NCBI RefSeq assembly: GCF_032362555.1
Contig: NC_083525.1
Coordinates: 3,271,501 to 3,335,500 of the forward strand
DNA: 64,000 nucleotides
DNA from: Amyelois transitella
Taxonomy: Eukaryota; Arthropoda; Insecta; Lepidoptera; Pyralidae
Direction of reading: 5' to 3'
The position numbers were made by a program, and so were the translations under genes. The notes under the pieces were generated by a model. The model saw only the letters and a program-made list of their open reading frames with translations, had not been told where the DNA came from and searched no databases. Positions within the stretch are counted from its first letter, which is position 1. Every line of letters starts with the position of its first letter. Shown here piece after piece: positions 3,649 to 55,591 of this stretch.

Positions 3649-6091
3649 TTATTGACCTGGCCCCGACAAGGACTTGTCCATGAATTTCCTTTTGGCAAAG
3701 CACAGCCACCACTTGCTTGGCTTGCCATCTTCTGTAGCAAACACCTGGAATTAAAAAAGGTTTGTTAATATTTAATTGATATGGACCATATAACTATTAG
3801 AGAAGTTTAGGTGGGGATAGCATTTCTTCAGCGGGGCGTACTAGGATGTCCTGTTGTCTGTAAACGCGAGTGGTTTCCTAAAGTAGTAAAGGACCATGCT
3901 ATCTCTTTCAGTGGGTGCACTAAGAGGCTAAAAGATCAGCGGGTCTCTATAATATTTGACGGATATGTCTAACTGTTGCCTGCCATTTCCGCCACAGAAA
4001 AGTATGAAATACAGTCGCTCCCCGCGTCTGTCCCTATGTTTATATGTATGTACGCTTGGATCTTTAAAACTACACAACCGATTTTGATGAAGTTATACAT
4101 ACATATGTATGAATTTTTTATCATCATCACTTTACACACGTGATATATCAAACGTAAAGCGTAATTAAACATAAAAGTGGAGAACTGAGGATCCTCATTT
4201 TGACAACATACATAAATATAATCACGTCTATCTATACCTTGCGGGGTAGACAGAGCCAACAGCCTTGAAATGAATTATAGGCCACATTCAGTTGTTTTGC
4301 TTAATGATAGAATTAATTTTAACAAGGTGATAATTTTTAAACAAAATGATAACATGATCTACTATTGCTTTCACCAAATTTCTCATTTTAATTACTATAC
4401 CAGTAGCCAGTAGTAAATGTTTTTCTTATATGTATTTAGCTATATAAACTTTTCACAGGAGGATCCATTTTGAAGGAAAATATATAAAATAATATTTTTT
4501 TTTTCTTTCAAATATGCTATATTGACTTGTTTCTCCAATTTTAGTTTGGCTTTAGTTTCTGCAGTACAAGTCCTCAATCCTCTATGTGAGGACTGAGGGT
4601 CTGGCTTCCAAGCCCCTAACTTGCTTATTTGATTTTCACAAAATCTGTTTCCAACTTTGTTTTTGGCATTTTCACTAAATCCTGAACACATTTTCAAAGA
4701 ATTCTGTAGGAGTGGCCCTTGGACCACGGACCACACATACATACAACATAACACTTTATATACATGTAGTTATGTTTACCTTTTCACATACTCGATTGCC
4801 TGTCTCGTGTCTGAGCTGCTGCAGGTACTGTCTCATTATATCTGTAAATGAAAAATTTGAATTTTCTGTATGAGAAAAACAAAAAGCAGCTAATTAATGT
4901 CTGCAATTTGTGTAGTATACTGAAAATGGGAATGTATACATATTTTTTTTTATTTTAGTTAAGTATGGCTTTATTTTTTTTTTAAACTTTATTGCAGCAA
5001 AAAGGATGTAGAGAGGGACAGGAGGGTAATAATTTTTGGTATAGATGAATGAGGCAAACATGCCAATAAGAGAAAAGATTTGTATTTCTGTTTGTGACAT
5101 ATAAACTCAATAACTTCAGAACTAATTTTGATAAAATATGGCACTGAGAAAAAAATACTCCTTTAGGAGGCTACTAAAATATCCCATGGGAGCAAATGCA
5201 ATATGCACATACATACATAGAAATACCTAATAATATTATAGTTATGAAAGCATTAAAATTTACCAGCTTCTTGGGGAGAAGAGGGTTTAGCGTAGACAGA
5301 ATTCAATGGGAAACCTGACTCGCCAGGAATGTCGAACTTAGAAATGGCCAGCATGTACATCTCCTGCTGACCCTGGTTCTTGTTGGAGCATTTCTGCAGC
5401 TTCTTCAGACACTCAGAGATGTACAGAGTTAAATAGATGAGCACACGGTCAGCATCAGACTAGAAAATAAAAAATCCTACATCACATAAAATGTCTTTTT
5501 CCCTGACGGGGTAAACAGCAAACAGTCTGAAAGGTCACTTAGGCTGTCTTAGTTCAGATACAGATATTGCTTGCTTGTCCATCATCAAAAAGAATCTCAA
5601 TTAAGAAGGCTTTCCATTAATTAACTTTTACAATTCAGTTGCCATGCACTACATTTTATCAAACAAATTTGTTAAGGCATGCAAAGCATTGATGTGTATG
5701 AAGCATGTTAGGAGGTATGCAGGGATCACGAAATGTGGTTAAATGTAATCTCTGCCTACTCGTCCAGAACTGAGGCGTTATCATTATATTTAAGTTTGTA
5801 ACAAGTATGCCAGGAAGTTATTTATAATCTACAAACCTTAATCTCGTAAAATCTAAAAAAAACATTGGCTTTGAAATAATTTAACGCTTCGTCAATAATA
5901 TCAAGTTCCAGTTTAGGATTTGTTGGTGCTGGGCCTCTGAATGTGGTCCGTATCGGAAGGAGTGCCAGGTTGCCGACCGATTGGGTGTAGTCCGTCAAAG
6001 TCGAATGATAAGCCTGCAATTAATACGAATTTAATGGTTTCACAGCAAAATTCAAACCTACACAGGGTATTAAAAATATATTTACGGGCAT
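3649..6091 (-). CDS. ARPC3: Arp2/3 complex subunit 3 (p21-Arc)
   Basis: Subunit of the seven-protein Arp2/3 complex that nucleates branched actin filaments in the cytoplasm. Five coding exons on the minus strand: 6086-6091 (only ATG CCC), 5837-6013, 5264-5459, 4780-4841 and 3649-3744. They total 537 bases, 178 residues plus TAA, the same length as human ARPC3. Recognisable conserved blocks are AYHSTL at the N-terminus, [47 protein letters not shown], and the C-terminus [21 protein letters not shown] (residues about 157-178). The tiny first exon was chosen because the family starts MPAYHS, exon 2 opens with AYHS right after an acceptor, and ATGCCC|GTAAAT lies 72 bases upstream in the right phase. 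The gene faces away from CCDC86; a piggyBac-like MITE lies between the two. Confidence 0.95.
4205..4345 (+). repeat. SINE-like repeat, family A, 3'-truncated
   Basis: In the last ARPC3 intron. Begins AATCACGTCTATCTATACC, then GCGGGGTAGACAGAGCCAAC and a diverged AATGATAGAATT block. Confidence 0.6.
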
Positions 6092-35563: not shown

Positions 35564-38500
35564 ATGTCCGACGCAATTGTGCCTAAGGGTCAGCCGATTC
35601 CAGGCGACCCAGAGAAGAAAGGGTGGCTTTTTAAATGGACCAATTACTTGAAGGGTTACCAACGAAGATGGTTCGTTCTTTCAAATGGATCGTTATCTTA
35701 TTACAGGTAAATACAAGTTGTTGTTTGCTTTAATATTTTGATATTTTGTCATCTCATAAACTCATTAAAATCTGAGGCTCATTTTCCCTACATAATACTG
35801 CATCGATTTTCTTGAACGATAGATTCGCTATGACGCAGCGATGTTTTCCTATTAATAAGTGGTGCTGAGGTTCTAACTGGAATCATACTGCCTTGAAACC
35901 CCTTTATTACACCAAGCTCTTAAGATAACTAGAAAATGTATTTTATATTACACTATATGAATGTATTTATAATCAAACTAAACAATGACATAATATCTCC
36001 TACAGATATCACAATTTGCATTTTTAATAATAAGATATGATATTTTTTTAAATCTATTGCATTGCAGTGTAGGTAATTATGTGATTATTTTATGTGTATG
36101 TCATATCTAATTCTAAGTCATACTTGTAGATAATATCTGGTACCTGCTTATATTATTACAGTAACAAAGTAAAGGAAATAATTCTTTATCTTACAAGTCT
36201 TTCCATACTGGTCTGTAAATCTGGTAGTGAAAAAAATACATAATGTAAGTCAATCAATGAAAAGGCTAACAATCTTAAAATTCTTTTATAGGCTTGGCTT
36301 ATAAAGATGTGATTATATGTAACTAGTCCTTCATTTGAATAGTAGGGGGCCTCTATTCTATCTGCAACTCATAGTATAAAACAAATACAGAATGATGAGT
36401 TCAGTGTTCATAATTGGGTGTAATAAACAGTCTTCAAGGTTGAATCATTAGATAGTAAATGTGAAATTCTAATTGACACTTGCACATGGGGCAGGTGGTA
36501 GACATTGTATGTTCTTGTTTGCCTTTTCTAAAATTAACAACAACCATGGATATGCAATTTGAGCATCAGCAGTTAAGGCTTGAAATCTTGTTTGGTCTTG
36601 TTTAGACTTGAAAGTTACTGCCGAGGTTAGAAGCCCAGTTTTTTAATAGTGATTCCATTTAAAACACATATTGTTATCTCATTGGCTAAATTATGTATGT
36701 ATGAATTATCAAATTTAATGTTTGTTAAAGCACTAAATAAATCTTAGACATTTTTAATGAACACAGAATACTTTATTAATTGATCTTATAAACCATTTCA
36801 TGAACTACATATTTTGAATAACAAAAAATAAATATATTTTTAAACATCAGTGTCATTAAACTTTTTACATATTTAATATTGTAACAAGGAGGTCACACTG
36901 AACAATGTTTGATAAGGGGCCATTCAAGTATTACATAAGCACTATGGGGGGGGGTCTTTGTTTTGTTTATTTTGGATTACATTGGAGGTAGGGGAGTCTA
37001 GATGATGATTACGTCATCTGTAGTTATTTACTTTTTTCCACAAATGGCAACCCTCACATTGTCTATGCATGAAGGCATTTTTTCGGGAATTCCCGCTAAA
37101 GTTGATGTTCGCTTTAGAATCGATTCGGGGAATTACCGCACTCTGTTCACTTGTTAAAATTTCTTCTGTCAGTGTATTGTTTTGTTCGGATACTAGCAAA
37201 GCAACTCAGCATTGGTGTTACTGTTGATTCCATTAGCCAAAGTTAAATGTTTTATTGAGGCTATCAAGTCGAACATGCAAAAAAGTCTTTATCATGCATT
37301 AAGTAAGTCACTAAATCGTCACATCGAGATGATCCTTAAAAATGAAACACGCACACTGATAAGAAAGTTAGATCTGTAATGTTCGCTGATCGGCTGATCG
37401 TTGTGCAAATTAACTGATGTGCATTATTCAAAATCCTGGTTAGTGCCATGTGGTGCCTGGCACTTATTAAACACGTATCTTTGATAGTGGTTTTGTATAG
37501 CATTTAACTATATTAGTTACTAGCGACCCGCCCCGGCTTCGCACGGGTGCAAAATTATAAATGTTATTATACATAAAAACCTTCCTCTTGAATCACTCTA
37601 CCTGTTACAAAAAACCGCATCAAAATCCGTTGCGTAATTTTAAAGATTTAAGCATACAGACAAACAGAATAAAATAATAATAGACTTTGTTTTATACTAT
37701 GTAGTGATTCAACGTTAGACCTTGTGACCCCTTAACAGTGCAACTTAGCAAAGTTTGTTAAGTTGGACTGTTGACCACATATTATGTGTCTACATACATA
37801 CATACATAAACTCACGCCTCTTTCCCGGAGGGGTAGGCAGAGACTACCTCTTTCCACTTGCCACGATCCCTGCATACTTCCTTTGCTTCATCCACATTCA
37901 TAACTCTCTTCATGCAAGCTCGGCGGTTTCGGGCACTTTTGACCTGACCCTTCACCAGGACGTCCTTAATTTGATCAAGATATGTTCGTCTAGGTCTTCC
38001 CACCCCGACCTTTCCCTCCACACTCTCCTTGTATATCTGCTTAGTCAACCTGTTTTCATTCATCCTCTCCACATGACCGAACCATCTCAACATACCCTTT
38101 TCTATTCCTGTAACTACATCTTCTTTCACATCACAACATTCCCTTATCACGCTGTTCGCTGTAAGTTGTCTAATACATTTAATTTCATTGTTTCAGGAAC
38201 CAAGCGGAGATGGTGCACACCTGCCGCGGCATGATCTCCCTTCTCGGCGCGCTGATCCACACCGCGGACTCGTGCACCTTCGTGATCAGCAACGGCGGCA
38301 CTCAGACCTTCCACATCCGCGCGCACGACGAGGTGGAACGCCAGAGCTGGGTCACTGCCCTCGAGCTCGCGAAGGCGAAAGCTATGTTAGTGTTAGTCCG
38401 ACATTTGTATCAGGTGCTGGTTGAGGGCCGCTTGCACTTACAATTTTCTAAAAACTTTTCTTCCTGCTTTACAACACAATGTTAGTGGATACTATTACTA

Positions 38501-47500: not shown

Positions 47501-50500
47501 GTGTGAAAATGGGAATGTTGGAAGAGGAACACCTAAACAAAAGTACTTTGATAAAATTAGGTATATTCTGGTGAAAGGTCTGTTTAAAAGTAGATTCTCT
47601 ATACTGACGGAACTTGCTTAGATTGATAATTGAAGATTAAGCAAACAATGTACGCAAAAATCGTGACAAAGGGAAAGGTGTAGTCTCTGCCTTCTTCTGT
47701 AAATAGGCTTGATCATACGTATGTTTGTAAATATATATGTCTGTTTTGTTTTAAATACCACACTTTGACACACATAGATACTTAGATTTAAACTCTTTAT
47801 TGCACCATAAGAATAATTATAACTCATAATAGCATTTTCCAATTTACTCTGCCAGCAGAAGAGTGTCCATTTACAATTATTATTGTTCGTAGGTATTATT
47901 CTTGGAAGACAAGGAGCGTGCAGAAGCCGCCATGGGCGGACCGGAGGCGACCGCCTCTAAGGCTGGCGCAGTCGAACAGAAAATATGGGTGAGATTGTTT
48001 TCTATACTAAACTAAAACTATACTGCAGCATGTTTTTTCGATTAGGAGTAGCCTTACTAAGATTTAATCGTACATTCAAACAAAAACATTTGTTTGAGAT
48101 TGACTTTTCTAAAATAGTTTCTGTTTATTACCAAACCGCTGTTGGCGCAAGTGTCTTTGCAAAAATTACATTCAAAGTTTTTAAAATGTGAATATATGAA
48201 CTTAGATGTAGTCTCTGCTTCTCCTCTGGGATAGAGGTGTGATTTTATGTATGTATTTAAACTAACAGTAAGCGAACGATCGCATACGTAATATAATTTT
48301 TTGAACGATCAGCAAGCTTTCGCGCAGTCGTCGTGCAATTATCGCTATTTCAAAGATTAAAATAATAAGCCGATGTATTTTTTATTTTCCGCAAAGGTAG
48401 CGGTTGTTAGAAGGGAGTCACTTCGTGTAAAAACCTGCCTTACCCAATCCAGGATCATATCCAAACTCCCGGACTCCTCTCGATTGAGTTCGCAAACAGG
48501 AGTAACGCCAGGAGAATGATGATAATTTATTCCTTAATAAAAATTCGGCAGCCCCACGTGTCGCAAGTGACCAACTCGACGGTGGACGGGCACCCGCGCC
48601 GGACCCGCGTGCCCGACAAGCCCAACTACCCGCTCAGTTTGTGGTCCATCATGAAGAACTGTATAGGTAACAATATGTTTACTATCATCTCAATATACAA
48701 AGGACTAACTGAGTAATTGATATATTAGTCATGCTACTAATACACTAAGAGAGGATTTCCGAAATTCCCGCGAAAATGGAAATTAATTTTATTTTTGCAC
48801 AGTGATAATAAACACGCCTCATATATATAATGTCCTGGTCTTAATGTTGAGGTATTTGCTAGGATGTATACTAAACACCCAAAATTAATCACATCCATTT
48901 TTTTAAGAATAAAACGATAAACAAAACCAGTGAAGACCTATACAGTTTAAATGATGGAATTGAAGATTTCGCCTAAAAAGTGAATCCCAATTTTATGAGC
49001 TTTTTTTTTTGAATGACCAACATACAGTTTTTCCGAGTTGCATCAAACATAATTGAGATAATCACGCCTCTTTCTCAGTGATGTCTGATCTTTCTCAGTC
49101 ACAATCTGAAATAAGTTTTCGTCTATACTATGTTTAGAAACATCACATATACCTACAGTTCAACAAGTACGGCTGTACTAGATTGAGATTAGATATCAGC
49201 CGTGATGCAGTTATTTTTACGATTGGTAGTATGACTTTGCAAACGGAAATGATAATCATGACATGAATTGTCAATTGGCTGAGATAAGACAACATGAGCT
49301 TGAATCGAAAACCATTTCTGTATTTGTTATGTTAAGCTAAATTTAATTTCATATCTTGTATTGAGTTATCTGAATAGTTTAAATAAGTTACCTTTGGTTA
49401 CGTAAGTAAACCACTTAACGGTTTTAGATTATGGTTTATATCAGTTAATTTTTCCTAATAAATCTTAATCTAAACCAATCTACTATCCCTTTTTTAAATA
49501 AAAGTCTTCCAATTTTTTATGGCTACAAAACTTCATGAAAAATTGGCTTCATGATGTGACCGCAGAATTGAGATATTTAAAATTCAAGTAATTTCGCATT
49601 CATAAATTTTGAAGCCTTGTGGTTCCCGGCACCAGTATAACAAAGAATAGGATCACTCCATCTCTTTCCCATGAATGTCGTAAAAGGCTACTTAGGGATA
49701 GGCTTATTAACTTGGGATTCTTTTATACGATGAGCAAGCAACCACTATTTAAGTCTCAATTCTATCATTAAGCCTAACAGCTAAACGTTTATCAGTTTGT
49801 CTACCCCGCAAGAAATATAAACGTGATTATATGAATGAATAAATTTGGATTTTGGACTAGGTACATAATCTATACTAATTTACATATATTCTAATTAGTT
49901 GGCAGTGAATCGTGTCTTTACATCGCCATTGATTTACTAATCTAAACAATCTGGCATTAGATAACATTGCCGGCTGATAAACTTACTGTTGTGACTGTTA
50001 TATGGGTGGTTCATTGATACATTTAGATAACTCTCCGTATCTAAAAATAATTGTTTATTTATTTATATGTTTGTATACAAACAGCTGGTTAGCTTATATT
50101 TCTGTTTCAGATTTCGCCCAAACAAATATACTTTATACTGTTTTATTTTATTATTTAAGTTTTGATTATTATTTTTGTTTACTACTAGGTAACGTAAGGA
50201 GGGTGATGATCTCTTAAATTTAATACTAAAAATCTCGCCTTTTTCCCAGACGGGTAGGCAGAAAATACATTTCTCTATTTATCACGATCCCTGCTTACTT
50301 TTATCCACATTCATAAGTATCTTCATGTAAGCTCTTCCGTCTGATTAGGGTACTCTAGACTTGAACATTCGCTTTAGAATTAAAAAAAAAATATTGTCTT
50401 AAATTGAAAGTATTAACGTAAAAAAAAATATTCATAGGCAAAGAGCTCTCGAAGATTCCGATCCCTGTGAACTTCAGCGAGCCGCTATCGATGCTGCAGA

Positions 50501-53500
50501 GGCTGGTGGAGGACTACGAATACTCAAGTATACTGGACCGGGCCGCTCAGTTCTCGGACCCCGCGCAGCAGCTGGCCTACGTGGCCGCCTTCACTGTGTC
50601 TTCCTACGCCACTACATCTTGCAGGTGACGTGTTTACATTATAATGCCGTGTGGTTCCCGGCACCGATACAAAAAAAGAATAGGATCACTCCATCTCGTC
50701 GATGTCGTAAAAGGCGACTAAGGGATTGGCTTACAAACTTGGGATTCCTTTTATAGGTGATGGCCTAGCAACCTGTCACTATTTGGATCTCAATTCTATT
50801 ATTAAGCCAAATAGCTGAACGTGGCCTATCAGTCTTTTCAAGACTGTTGGCTCTGTCTGCCCCGCAGGGGATGTAGACCTGACGTTATATATGTATGTAT
50901 GTATGTTTAGAGGCAGGGACTACTCGTACGTCTTTCCACTTGGAGCGATCCCTGGATACTTTTGCCTTTAGTCTTTTTAAAAGTTTAATTTGACTTGTCA
51001 CATAAATATTTTAAGCTCCACGTACCGTTTATAGTTTTCTAGTAAAAGCTAAATATATATCTGTATAAATCCATGCTAGCGTACATAATGGCTGCAGATT
51101 AAAGTCCATACAATCCAAACTCACCCCTACAACCCAACATTTACAATAGTTGAAATGTGACGTATGGTTTCAGAACGAACAAGCCGTTCAACCCGCTGCT
51201 GGGCGAGACGTACGAGTGCGACCGCATGGCCGACCTCGGCTGGCGCGCCATATCTGAGCAGGCGAGTTATAGTGACCATTATTAACACTTTAACTAGTTA
51301 GTAAATTCAATGAACTAATGTTTCGGTACGATAAATGACCGCGGGGTTCCCGACAAAAAGGAAATAAGAACGACATCCATGAGAAAGAATCAATGGTCTT
51401 ACCACGCCATTTCCTTCTCATGGATGTCGTAAACGGCGTCTTAAGGGATAGGCTTATAAACACCAATAAAAAAAGAATAGGACCACTCCATCTCGTTCCT
51501 ATGGATGTCGTAAAAGGCGACTAAAGGATAGGCTTATATTATTACTTGGGATTCTTCTTTTAGGCGATGTGCTAGCAACCTGTCACTATTTGAATCTCAA
51601 TTCCATCATAAAGCCAAACAGCTGAACGTGGCCTATAAGTCTTTTCAAGACTGTTGGCTCTGTCTACCCCGCAAGGGATATAGACGTGATTATATGTATG
51701 TATGTCTACTCCGCTAGGGATAAAGACGTGATTATTTTAGTTTTTTCCAACCCGTCAATCTGTTTCTTTATGATGATTCTCTCTTCCAAATGACACCAAT
51801 AAGAAAGAGACAGAGGGGTAAGGGATAATTTCATTTAAACCAAACAAAGAAAATGCATCATTTTCATTTCGAAGTTTATTGTTTTGAGCCGGTACCTATT
51901 TTGTTTATAGTATCTTAATCTGACGTTCTTTTTGATACAGAAATACGAGTGAAAGGGCTTATCCCTTCAGTCGTCACTTATCATCTCCATCAAATTCTAT
52001 ATTTATTATGTGCATAAAAGTACCAACTAGGGTGTAGGCACAGTTGATAATACAAATACCATATTATTTAACATTGTGTTATTATTATTTTTTCAGTCAC
52101 TTATTTTATTATAGTCATATTTTTTTTTGTTAATTTTCTTTTAAAATATATGCTATATTATATCCCTCATTAATATTCCTACCTGCAATTCCCCACCATT
52201 CCTTCTCCTTCCAGCATTCCTCGCCTCAACGTCTCCGTTTAATAATACTGCTTTTGGTGAATTGTTTTTGTAATGTAAGGAATTTAAAATATATTTAAAA
52301 TTTTATTTTTTCTTTTTATAGTCGAAATAATTAGTCATGTGTGACATGGTACGTTAGAAATAGTATTCAAAATTTTTATGGCGTAAACTTTTTATTCTAA
52401 AATTTAACTTATAATGTTAAAAATTAACAAATCTTTATTTTACTCACCTCAGTGTTTGTTATATATAGCTAAATCTAACGTTTTTGACAAGAACTTATAT
52501 TTTTATTTTTTTCTTTGGCAAATCGTTTCCGATACCGAACCAATAAACAAAATTGCAAAATTGACCATAAAAATTGGGGTGTAGGTGTCTCACCACCCGC
52601 CGATGGTGGCGCAGTTCTGCGAGGGGCAGGCGGGCTGGCAATGCTGGCAGGAGTTCACCATGACCACCAAGTTCCGCGGGAAGTACCTCCAGGTCGTGCC
52701 CCTGGGGTCCGCCTCCGCCATGTTCCGCAGCTCCGGGAACAAGTACATGTGGAGGAAGGTGGGTTCGTGGTGCGATGACGGTTCAGGCGGATCCAGGTAG
52801 CACGGATGTTAAGGGGTTCCAGAAACAAAAACTTGTGGAGGATGAATATGTGTTTAATCATTAGGGTCCAGGTGGATGCAGGTAGGAATATCACAGGGTC
52901 CACGCATATAGGTAGTATGTAAAGGCTTATTGACACCAGGGCAACGCTGCATTAACAAGTACCTATCTGTTAAAGAATAGGTCTAAAATAACATATCTTC
53001 TGATGTGAATGCCTGAGGGCAAAATCTGATTCACATCAGCCTGAGGGAAAAAAAATATGTCTTCGATTTGTTTGTGAGGTAACCGACCGAGTTCTTGTCT
53101 CCAAATAAAAAAGAGGATGTTTCAACAATGTCGCATTGTGTTACATTATGAGATTTATAAGTTACGCCGATGTATCCTTGCAGAAGTTCAATCTTTGTAT
53201 GGCGTGAAAATATTTGAGCGGTTGAGCCTATCAGACAGCGCCGTTCGAACCCGCGAACTACACTGTCCGCCATTATGGCAGGATATATTTTGTTTTTGGA
53301 TTTGATGTACCTACTTGTAACTTTGTCGAGTTACATTCGGTTTGATTCGGCGGTAGGTTGCGCTGTCTATAATTGCCGACGCGACTTATAAATTGGTGGA
53401 ACCACTAGACTGTAGTTGGAGGATTGCCCCAGTGTCAATGAGCAGTCCCCACAATGACTTCATGCCGGGCGGAGGCAGGTGGTGCACCACCCGCCCACGG

Positions 53501-55591
53501 CGGTGCACCACTGCGAGGGCGCGGCGGGCTGGGTGCTGCAGCAGGAGTTCTCGTACCAGAGCTACTTCCGCGGCCAGTTCATCACGATCCACCCGCTGGT
53601 GTTCCCCACCTGCGTCTTCACCAACAACGGCAGCCGGTACAGCTGGGACAGGGTACCCGAGCTCGTTTGTTTTACACTATACTTTTAAAAGGTTTTTGTA
53701 GTTACACTTTTCTCTCATTTTCACGAAAAATGCCAGCGGAACCATCTGATTTAGTCTTCCTCCTGAAGTTAGTACGAGTTGCAAAACATTGTCAACTGAC
53801 TCACCCAATACAGGATCCCATGGTCAACCGATGTAACCGGGACTCAAGCTAGTAGGAAGAAGCAATAAATTCTCAAATCTCTGGAGAGCAGTCGGGATGC
53901 GCCTTTTTTGCTCTCCGCTGGTAGGTAATGTATTGCCTGTACTTACTTCAGGCAAACTATTGCTACATATTCAAAATTCTGGAGTTTACATTCAAGCGAT
54001 AGTGAGCCTAGAATAGCTTCTAGTAAGCAAATCGATCAGAGATTGTACCGTCTCTTCCAATTTCAGGTGACGACGACAGTGCACAACATCATAGTGGGCA
54101 AGCTGTGGGTGGACAACCACGGCGACATGGACATCGTGGGCGAGGCGGGCCCGGCCAAGGGCTACGTGGCGCACCTCAAGTACCAGCCCTACAGCTACTT
54201 CAGCAAGGACACGCAGAGGAAAGTTACCGGCATCATCAAGGATCCTGATGGAGTGGTGAGCATAGTATTACAAGTAGATAATTTAAAGGCTTTTTCCCGG
54301 TCGAGAACGAGCTAGCCAACTTTAATCTTAAAGAAATAACTTACTGAATCAAACAAATACTCGCATTTAAGGTTCAATTGAAATCCTACATTATTTTGGA
54401 TACTTGATTTGATACTCGTGAGGGAAAACATAATGGAAAACCTGCCTACGGCGGCAACTGGGTGTTTAACTATGGTCCACACTGTGGTAATCTTTCCCTA
54501 CTAAGTGGCTCAAGAAGCTCAGACATTTTGCATTAAAATGCGATTAACAAAATAACTTCTTGCGTGCGGGTGTGGCCCTAAAGAGGTGAACTGCTGATCA
54601 ATAATATCCCGGAACTTAATGATGATAAATGTAGGTATTCAATGTTAATACTAAAAGATGATAAAATAACCTAAAAATTATGGTTAAAACTATGTGTGTT
54701 CACACGGTGAACGAGCGCAGTCAGCATATTGATGTGCATCGAACAGAAGCTTTTATTAAAAACAATGAAATATTTTCAGCCGCGGTACGTGCTGCAAGGC
54801 TACTGGGACAGCAAGGTGGAGGTGGCGCCGGTGACGTCGGCGTCGCCCGACAACACCGTGTGCAAGACCGGCAAGTTCTGCGTCGCCTGGGAGCGCGTGC
54901 CCGCGCCGCCCGACTCCGACAAGTTAGTGGCCTCACCTCGCTCACACTGCGCACGAAATATACCCAAACGGCATAGTTTATTAGCGTAAAATGCTTGCAT
55001 GAAAATTTCTCTTTATCATGAATTGATTTACGTTCAGGCTTACGATTTTCTGCCACTGAATAGACTGATCTACTGACAGACTGAATAAATTTGATCTACA
55101 TAGCCTTTTTAACACCTAATTGTTTAGTGCATGTTTTCATCCCATAAGTTAGTAGGATGCATAGTCGTACATTTATAATAATATATAAGATCAATCTGTT
55201 AATTTCGGAAGTAAAATAAGTTTGTATAAACTTTCGCAGGTGGTACTACTTCACACTACTGGCGGCGCAGCTGAACGAGCTCGAGAACGGCGTCGCGCCC
55301 ACAGACTCGCGGCTGCGCCCTGACCAGCGCCTCATGGAGGAGGGGCTCTGGAACGAGGCCAACGCGGAGAAGCTGCGCCTCGAGGAGAAGCAGCGCGCCA
55401 AGCGGCGGCAGATGGAGGCCGAGGCGGAGGCGGCGGCCGCCAGCGGGGCGCCGCCCGCGCCCGCGCCCGCGCCCGCCTGGTTCTCGCGCGAGGCCGAGCC
55501 CGGCCAGCCGCACCTGCGGCACCTCTACAACCACCGCTACTGGGAGAGCAAGGAGCGCCAGGACTGGAGCGCGTGCCCCGACATCTATTAG
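35564..55591 (+). CDS. OSBP: Oxysterol-binding protein (PH domain, FFAT motif, sterol-binding ORD)
   Basis: Lipid transfer protein of ER-Golgi contact sites that exchanges sterol for PI4P. Coding exons: 35564-35706, 38197-38385, 41441-41714, 42451-42619, 46198-46319, 46891-46968, 47893-47988, 48552-48666, 50438-50624, 51174-51261, 52585-52758 or 53479-53652 (alternative), 54067-54255, 54780-54922, 55240-55591. With one alternative exon the protein has 772 residues (human 807). PH domain at about residues 17-107 ([20 protein letters not shown]). Glu/Arg-rich coiled coil at about 175-250. FFAT motif EFFDAME at 275-281 binds ER protein VAP. The ORD runs from about 380 ([18 protein letters not shown]), with [10 protein letters not shown] and EQVSHHPP (486-493; His pair for PI4P), to the C-terminus DWSACPDIY. 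Intron 10 has a GC donor. 3' UTR ends near AATAAA at 56372-56377. ATG at 35564 chosen over an upstream in-frame codon because MSDAIVPKG leads straight into the PH domain. Confidence 0.96.
37790..38155 (-). mobile_element. Truncated LINE, C-terminal end of reverse transcriptase polyprotein
   Basis: Minus-strand frame of 112 codons without stops: [20 protein letters not shown], then [20 protein letters not shown] and [19 protein letters not shown]. The WFGHVERM block is typical of the C-termini of lepidopteran non-LTR retrotransposons (RTE-like; class assigned by resemblance only). The element is 5'-truncated and lies 42 bases before the acceptor of OSBP exon 2. Confidence 0.75.
38822..39120 (-). 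repeat. Interspersed repeat, family C
   Basis: Begins ACTAGCTGATGCCCGCGACT followed by TCGTTCGCC. In OSBP intron 2. Confidence 0.55.
39385..39600 (-). repeat. Interspersed repeat, family C, well preserved
   Basis: Runs from GCCCGCGACTTCGTCCGCAT through GTAATCGGTTCAGTAGTTTT and ACAAACATCCATACATCCAT to CTTTATAATAGTAGTAGGAT. This is the classic end structure of the family. Relatives lie at 33478-33740, 37517-37705 and 20215-20270. Confidence 0.6.
40320..40997 (+). repeat. Interspersed repeat related to family C
   Basis: Begins CTAATATTATAAAGAGGAAA, contains AAAACTACTGGACCGATTTT and ends GAAGCCGGGGCGGGTCGCTA. The end is the reverse complement of the sequence that starts the copy at 37517, which supports a shared family. 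In OSBP intron 2. Confidence 0.5.
43065..43370 (-). mobile_element. Decayed LINE 3' end
   Basis: Inverted copy of the same LINE terminus (AAAATCACGCCTCTTTCCCG, TTCGTCTAGGTCTTC) with frame breaks and deletions. In OSBP intron 4. Confidence 0.6.
43375..43615 (+). repeat. SINE-like repeat, family A
   Basis: In OSBP intron 4, joined to an inverted LINE fragment (43065-43370). Shows GTGACAGGTTGCTAGCCTAT and CAACCTATCCCTTAGTCGCT. Confidence 0.6.
44965..44971 (+). CDS. OSBP: Candidate alternative first coding exon of OSBP
   Basis: ATGGGCG is followed directly by a strong donor GTAAGT (44972-44977). It ends in phase 1, which is what exon 5 (46198, GT GGG ACC...) needs; the product would begin [12 protein letters not shown] and lack the PH domain and coiled coil. 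The ATG has A at -3 and G at +4. Upstream sequence 44730-44964 contains CG-containing stretches unlike the surrounding AT-rich intron. This is inference from splice phase and context only. Confidence 0.35.
46342..46439. repeat. Short inverted-repeat element (MITE-like), copy 1
   Basis: About 98 bases with inverted ends: TACGGTCAACAGCATATCAA at the left; GATATGCTGTGAACTGTA at the right. A related copy is at 56871-56972. It begins 22 bases after OSBP exon 5. Confidence 0.5.
47395..47725 (+). mobile_element. Decayed LINE 3' end
   Basis: Forward frame reads [20 protein letters not shown] and then decays; ends with a diverged GTAGTCTCTGCCTTC block. In OSBP intron 6. A further short inverted piece lies at about 50230-50340. 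Confidence 0.6.
49615..49840 (-). repeat. SINE-like repeat, family A, inverted
   Basis: In OSBP intron 8. Begins with TTGTGGTTCCCGGCACCAGT and ends GTCTACCCCGCAAGAAATAT, the reverse of the family. Confidence 0.7.
50640..50910 (-). repeat. SINE-like repeat, family A, inverted, near full length
   Basis: In OSBP intron 9, directly after exon 9. Runs from GCCGTGTGGTTCCCGGCACC to TGTATGTATGTATG, well preserved. Confidence 0.75.
51262..52584 (+). other. OSBP intron 10 with GC-AG splice sites
   Basis: Exon 10 must end with the codons GAG CAG (EQ) to join VSHHPP in frame. The next six bases are GCGAGT, so the donor dinucleotide is GC rather than GT. No usable GT lies nearby that would keep the conserved sequence. 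The intron also contains two partial SINE copies (about 51380-51720). Confidence 0.8.
51330..51720 (-). repeat. SINE-like repeat, family A, inverted, partly duplicated
   Basis: In OSBP intron 10. A partial copy (GGTTCCCGACAAAAAGGAAA, ATGGATGTCGTAAACGGC) precedes a fuller one (from about 51455 to TATGTATGTATG at 51705), in the same orientation as the copy before exon 10. Confidence 0.7.
52585..52758 (+). CDS. OSBP: OSBP alternative exon 11a (canonical signature VSHHPP)
   Basis: 174 bases, 58 codons, phase 0 at both ends. It begins GTG TCT CAC CAC CCG right after GTGTAG and ends AGGAAG|GTGGGT. It completes the family signature EQVSHHPP with the EQ of exon 10. The later block [12 protein letters not shown] matches the canonical OSBP sequence. 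This is therefore the conserved version of the exon. The acceptor has a poor pyrimidine tract (AAAATTGGGGTGTAG). Confidence 0.9.
52991..53060 (+). other. Predicted RNA hairpin in the intron between OSBP exons 11a and 11b
   Basis: Perfect 11-bp inverted repeat CTGATGTGAAT (53000-53010) and ATTCACATCAG (53029-53039), with an 18-nt loop. Outer arms ACATAT (52991-52996) and ATATGT (53055-53060) can add six pairs. A direct repeat GCCTGAGGG occurs in the loop (53011) and right of the stem (53039). It lies between the two alternative exons. Confidence 0.5.
53479..53652 (+). CDS. OSBP: OSBP alternative exon 11b (diverged duplicate, VVHHPP)
   Basis: Also exactly 174 bases and phase 0 at both ends. 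It begins GTG GTG CAC CAC CCG after GGAGGCAG and ends GACAGG|GTACCC. The frame is open throughout, with almost every codon ending in G or C, as in neighbouring exons. It aligns without gaps to exon 11a and shares HHPP, CEG, AGW, QEF, FRG, PL and W, 23 identities in 58. FRGQFI replaces FRGKYL. Either exon splices in frame between exon 10 and the exon at 54067. Mutually exclusive use is inferred; inclusion of both would also keep frame but would duplicate part of the barrel. Its acceptor is purine-rich and its donor weak, which suits regulated use. Confidence 0.8.

Follow-up and report, generated by a model that had tools for sequence, protein, structure and literature searches.

Tandem-duplicated exons that are spliced in mutual exclusion have been described for several genes, with Cacophony, Ca-alpha1T, Dscam, Mhc and nAChR alpha6 as named examples. 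Such pairs consist of adjacent homologous exons inside a domain, are often ancient and yield isoforms that differ in one block (PMC9741552, PMC9013439). Neither OSBP nor oxysterol is mentioned in the main text of PMC9741552, nor OSBP in PMC9013439. Regulated exon choice is also known from Caenorhabditis elegans let-2, where it requires a GC donor that belongs to intron 10; replacement of this donor by GT raised the use of exon 10 (PMC2490688). At the level of whole genes, Osbp duplication was reported for some hemipterans in an insect-wide study (PMC6826512). Among the literature matches listed, no title or abstract opening reports an OSBP exon pair, and a forty-year OSBP review and one fly Osbp paper do not mention splicing, exons or isoforms. 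The exon arrangement described below is of a known kind; for OSBP we found no prior report, and one may exist in annotation or in print. From vertebrates, an OSBP gene with a second exon of this kind is not known.

The pair analyzed here resembles these systems in that two homologous exons lie side by side within one domain. It differs from them in that the gene encodes an OSBP-family lipid exchanger and in that the pair is known here from genomic sequence alone. Within the window, that is, the whole 64-kb stretch of Amyelois transitella DNA analyzed, the OSBP gene lies on the plus strand, starts at or before a PH-like exon near 38200 (read as PH by eye) and ends with the stop codon at 55589-55591. 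The following features are used below, with the evidence on which each is based:

50438-50624, plus strand: upstream exon of the lipid-binding domain (ORD), taken as constitutive (splice sites, frame; protein alignment with 7v62_A beginning at residue 26)
51174-51261, plus strand: OSBP exon ending in ...RAISEQ, with a GC donor, cag/GCGAGT (frame, splice sites)
52173-52187, plus strand: left arm, 15 nt, of an inverted repeat upstream of exon a (perfect repeat, shuffles, local fold)
52585-52758, plus strand: exon a, the canonical copy, VSHHPP...MWRK (PF01237 and human OSBP match)
52877-52891, plus strand: right arm, 15 nt, of the inverted repeat, located in the intron that separates exons a and b (perfect repeat)
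53479-53652, plus strand: exon b, the variant copy, VVHHPP...SWDR, with a weak donor, agg/GTACCC (PF01237 and human OSBP match, GC3)
54067-54255, alternative end 54252, plus strand: next OSBP exon after the pair (splice sites, frame, alignment)
54780-54922, plus strand: OSBP ORD exon (frame, splicing model)
55240-55591, coding to 55588, plus strand: final part of the ORD and stop codon (frame, alignment)

The ORD joins the exons at 50438-50624 and 51174-51261, either exon a or exon b, and the segments 54067-54255, 54780-54922 and 55240-55588. Spliced in this way, ORD-A and ORD-B each comprise 376 residues in an open frame, and both match human OSBP (7v62) end to end with 451 and 443.5 bits, respectively, the next-best relatives scoring 218.3 bits for A and 208.3 bits for B. 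By E value, the closest solved relative of the whole domain is likewise OSBP (3.1e-134 for A and 6.2e-132 for B, followed by 1.5e-63 and 1.8e-60).

Both exons measure 174 bp, are in phase 0/0, lack internal stops and lie between the same OSBP exons, separated from each other by an intron of 720 nt. Their products align without gaps to one another, with 23 of 58 residues identical, and likewise to human OSBP, with which a shares 28 and b 26 of the 58 positions. Nineteen residues are common to a, b and the human protein, nine to a and human only, seven to b and human only and four to a and b only. For comparison with the 28/58 of exon a, identity to human OSBP amounts to 62/91 in the preceding exons, 37/63 in the following one and 13/48 in the exon at 54780-54922. 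Searched against PF01237 (gathering score 28.9), exon a covers profile positions 103-159 (E 3.1e-15, 56.3 bits) and exon b positions 103-158 (E 4.4e-9, 36.1 bits); both align without gaps to the same stretch of 7v62_A, at 117-174 and 117-173. OSBP of this moth, therefore, carries a tandem duplicate of one ORD exon, and the two copies are homologous, adjacent and compatible in length and phase, as are mutually exclusive pairs. These data bear out the initial annotation in its coordinates, equal lengths, phases, residue identity and open frames, and the changes that it quoted, FRGKYL to FRGQFI and PLGSAS to PLVFPT, are correct. That the pair could have arisen artificially, by haplotype duplication or assembly error, is exceedingly improbable: no sign in favor of it was found, the copies have diverged at 35 of the 58 residues and at 66 of the 174 bases (23, 26 and 17 by codon position), the sole long repeat shared by the two sites is confined to the exons and their acceptors, and the carrying contig spans 9.18 Mb in a 327-Mb assembly of 33 contigs.

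Exon b is, with little room for doubt, a real second coding exon. G or C occupies 56 of 58 third codon positions in exon a and all 58 in exon b; the 57 A/T bases of exon b all fall on first or second positions, for which its composition gives a P of 1.5e-13. The GC-ending codon bias and complete openness that had been attributed to the second copy were, thus, confirmed. When neutral decay from exon a to the observed nucleotide identity was simulated in 4,000 runs each under intron, exon and 80% GC composition, a GC3 of 58/58 arose in 0, 0 and 1 runs and a GC3 of at least 56/58 in 0, 2 and 58 runs. Depending on the setting, 7-28% of the 4,000 simulated copies stayed open, and 0.025-0.65% (six settings) were both open and in possession of HHPP. 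Exon b is stop-free in four of six frames because it is GC-rich and, given this and the share of open neutral copies, an open frame alone is weak evidence; the coding case is carried by third-position bias and homology instead. The GC content in successive thirds of exon b is 0.79, 0.59 and 0.64 and falls to 0.33 immediately after it, while the 58 bases before it already reach 0.60, so that the GC-rich block is not exactly bounded by the exon.

Pairwise substitution rates are of no use as a test of selection here. Uncorrected NG86 estimates gave a dN of 0.576 and a dS of 0.373 (ratio ~1.5), and LWL85 gave 0.584 and 0.413. However, third positions change almost solely between G and C, and five of the 11 fourfold sites common to both exons differ, which is about the two-state saturation level. 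Because the GC3 bias caps synonymous change and synonymous sites look saturated, dN/dS was dropped as a selection test for the pair, and for the same reason it cannot support purifying selection on exon b either. The initial annotation had considered exon b to be under selection and not a decayed duplicate. Of this, the undecayed appearance and a constraint at third positions hold, whereas the uncorrected ratio of ~1.5 lends the claim no support; constraint on exon b is argued here from codon-position structure, not from dN/dS.

The duplication is confined to two copies in all searches performed. A genome search with exon b, in which the best three candidates were scored, returned exon b itself, exon a (E 6.9e-11) and one weak paralogue (0.18) and, thus, among these candidates, no retrocopy. 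In the 64-kb window, no third copy exceeded the threshold among 2,838 stop-to-stop segments with 15 or more residues (the next-best had an E of 1.4), and tblastn of viral contigs and GTDB genomes (11 and 62 pattern matches, respectively) gave no relative of exon b. A candidate decayed copy of the exon a end at 52806-52842 (73% over 37) was dropped, as the similarity does not extend (39/86). A PF01237 profile search of the genome considered 29 candidates and listed 28 matches, of which two, both in this OSBP gene, start at the duplicated segment (profile 103-164 and 101-163). Every other locus has one such match, and that of the next OSBP exon (122-224) overlaps the segment in part.

The best tree of the segment, built from 58 residues and 9 of 11 rows after leaving out two partial rows of paralogues from the same genome, joins a and b as sisters, followed by human OSBP (SH-aLRT 86.6, UFBoot 79). 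The branches measure 0.50 for a, 1.09 for b and 0.39 for their shared stem. The AU test rejected a grouping of a with human OSBP (0.017) but not of b with human OSBP (0.20), and KH and SH rejected neither. From these data, we infer an old duplication, far back in the insect or arthropod lineage and after or near the vertebrate split, a date that is rough because the tree rests on 58 residues. An old duplication predicts that exon b is widespread among related insects.

Repeated sequence was also seen elsewhere in these genes. In the intron before exon a, positions 51370-51735 contain direct and inverted pieces resembling a dispersed repeat, with similar sequence near 50840 and in locus L009. 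This locus harbors, at 4045-4712 on the minus strand, a tandem array with a 172-bp unit (3.9 copies, 93% matches) in a gene of the same genome that is ORP5/8-like by resemblance. The array unit corresponds to the end of the exon preceding the HHPP exon, and its copies read ...FYVAEQ followed by GT. We read this array as a recent duplication of an exon piece in a second ORP gene.

To place the duplicated segment in the domain, human numbering was set by hand such that D453, T491 and K577 coincide with an Asp, a Thr and a Lys in the sequence of 7v62. The exon then corresponds to human residues 520-577; it begins with the V of the VSHHPP signature and ends with Lys577. EQVSHHPP, which we take to be the OSBP signature, is exact with exon a, while exon b gives EQVVHHPP, in which the His pair and PP are kept and the Ser is lost. 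This Ser is present in all nine other ORD segments compared: human OSBP, ORP1, ORP3 and ORP8, yeast Osh3 and four paralogues from the moth genome (two partial), the latter named by resemblance (ORP3-like and so on). Ten columns are invariant in these nine segments, a count that leaves out ORP2, a Kluyveromyces Osh and Osh6. Exon a retains all ten and exon b six, having lost S2 (VSHHPP to VVHHPP), A9, K29 (K29Y) and G41 (G41V). Net charge (K and R minus D and E) is +5 in a, 0 in b and +6 in human OSBP. The human OSBP ORD (7v62), thus, resembles isoform A, which aligns with it end to end and keeps the ten family invariants, and is unlike b, with its VVHHPP, Y at 548, V at 560 and a net charge of 0 versus +6.

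Several of these positions have described roles. In ORP3, PI4P is bound through its 4-phosphate by the two His residues together with Arg837, and through its 1-phosphate by Lys603 and Lys829 (PMC8049286); the positions of both Lys residues lie outside the duplicated segment. D453, T491 and K577 of human OSBP are sterol contacts predicted by docking (PMC11830314), of which K577, the last residue of the exon, is retained in a and replaced by R in b. In ORP1, the P688A exchange reduces sterol binding, with P688 located at the tunnel bottom (PMC6381110). By a hand count from His651, this Pro is exon position 39 and is conserved in both a and b, and the sequence beside it changes from PLGS in a to PLVF in b. 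The proposal that the pair retains the His residues and would exchange a section of the lipid-binding barrel is supported by the PF01237 match and the alignment; as to the changed residues around the retained His pair, b departs further from the family invariants than had been noted (the S of VSHHPP, A9, K29 and G41). The b isoform is, thus, predicted to share the PI4P-gripping His pair with A and to differ in barrel wall, tunnel bottom and a surface stretch, which makes a lipid or membrane difference between the isoforms plausible.

Splice signals around the pair are of uneven quality. Scored against the donor consensus, the GC donor at 51261 (bases 51262-51263), which is common to both outcomes, matches eight of nine positions, and the exon b donor five of nine, the lowest of the six scored; the remaining four range from six to eight of nine. 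Pyrimidines occupy nine of 20 positions before the exon b acceptor, which is preceded by a purine run, and seven of 20 before that of exon a. The weak donor, the purine run, the four lost invariants, the longer branch (1.09 versus 0.50 for a) and the uncorrected dN/dS above 1 would suit an exon b that was functional for long and is now dying or seldom spliced. We consider such a relic unlikely, as exon b has a GC3 of 58/58, is free of stops and retains its splice dinucleotides and HHPP, and acceptors with few pyrimidines are frequent in this gene (three of five others also score 7-9).

We favor mutually exclusive use of exons a and b, with a probability of about 0.8. This is inferred because either copy alone gives a full-length ORD, while both together would add an extra block of 58 residues. 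Omission of both copies left the examined part of the splicing model in frame and the signature missing. The frame itself does not enforce exclusion because a model with both exons is also open, both being in phase 0/0, and the 720-nt intron between them provides no steric ground for it. Exon b could, thus, be a coding exon used as an added cassette, with some OSBP containing both copies. This appears improbable, since an extra 58-residue block in the barrel would, judging from the ORD structure (PMC8049286), be expected to break the fold. Under mutual exclusion, transcripts would carry a or b with the rest of the ORD unchanged, and the moth probably makes two OSBP forms.

The choice between the exons could involve the GC donor upstream together with the weak donor on b. 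GC donors are overrepresented among genes with alternative splicing (PMC2490688), and the locus resembles let-2 in having a GC donor where exons are chosen. Unlike in let-2, the moth GC donor sits on the shared upstream exon, and the relationship is one of association only. Competition between RNA structures within introns is one known mechanism of mutually exclusive splicing. At this locus, a perfect 15-bp inverted repeat (52173-52187 and 52877-52891), chosen from ten inverted pairs listed, brackets exon a. Matches of at least 15 were reached in four of 1,500 dinucleotide shuffles of the same two introns, and by the same type of shuffle, inverted matches in the remaining pairs, introns 2-3 and 1-3, were not beyond chance. 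In a 900-nt local fold, the stem has pair probabilities of 0.843-1.0, with a duplex energy of -23.6 kcal/mol, and its motif recurs elsewhere in the window once, with two mismatches. Such an intronic stem would loop out exon a and so favor b; as there are three intron pairs to allow for, it is suggestive only as a splice-choice element.

For the two forms, PI4P binding would be kept and the second ligand, the attraction to membranes or both may change. Based on the PLGS-to-PLVF change, the loss of an invariant Lys and Gly and the loss of five net positive charges, we tentatively raise the possibility that isoform B keeps its PI4P grip and serves a different second lipid or membrane, with the insect toggling cargoes through the GC donor and the exon-looping stem.

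OSBP exchanges sterol for PI4P between membranes, and insects depend on dietary sterols. If insects swap a pocket piece by splicing, a single gene would yield two exchangers set apart by one defined block of 58 residues. If true, the pair would constitute a natural experiment on second-ligand and membrane residues in which the PI4P-binding His pair is held constant, and given the dependence on dietary sterols, a second pocket could matter to insect lipid handling.
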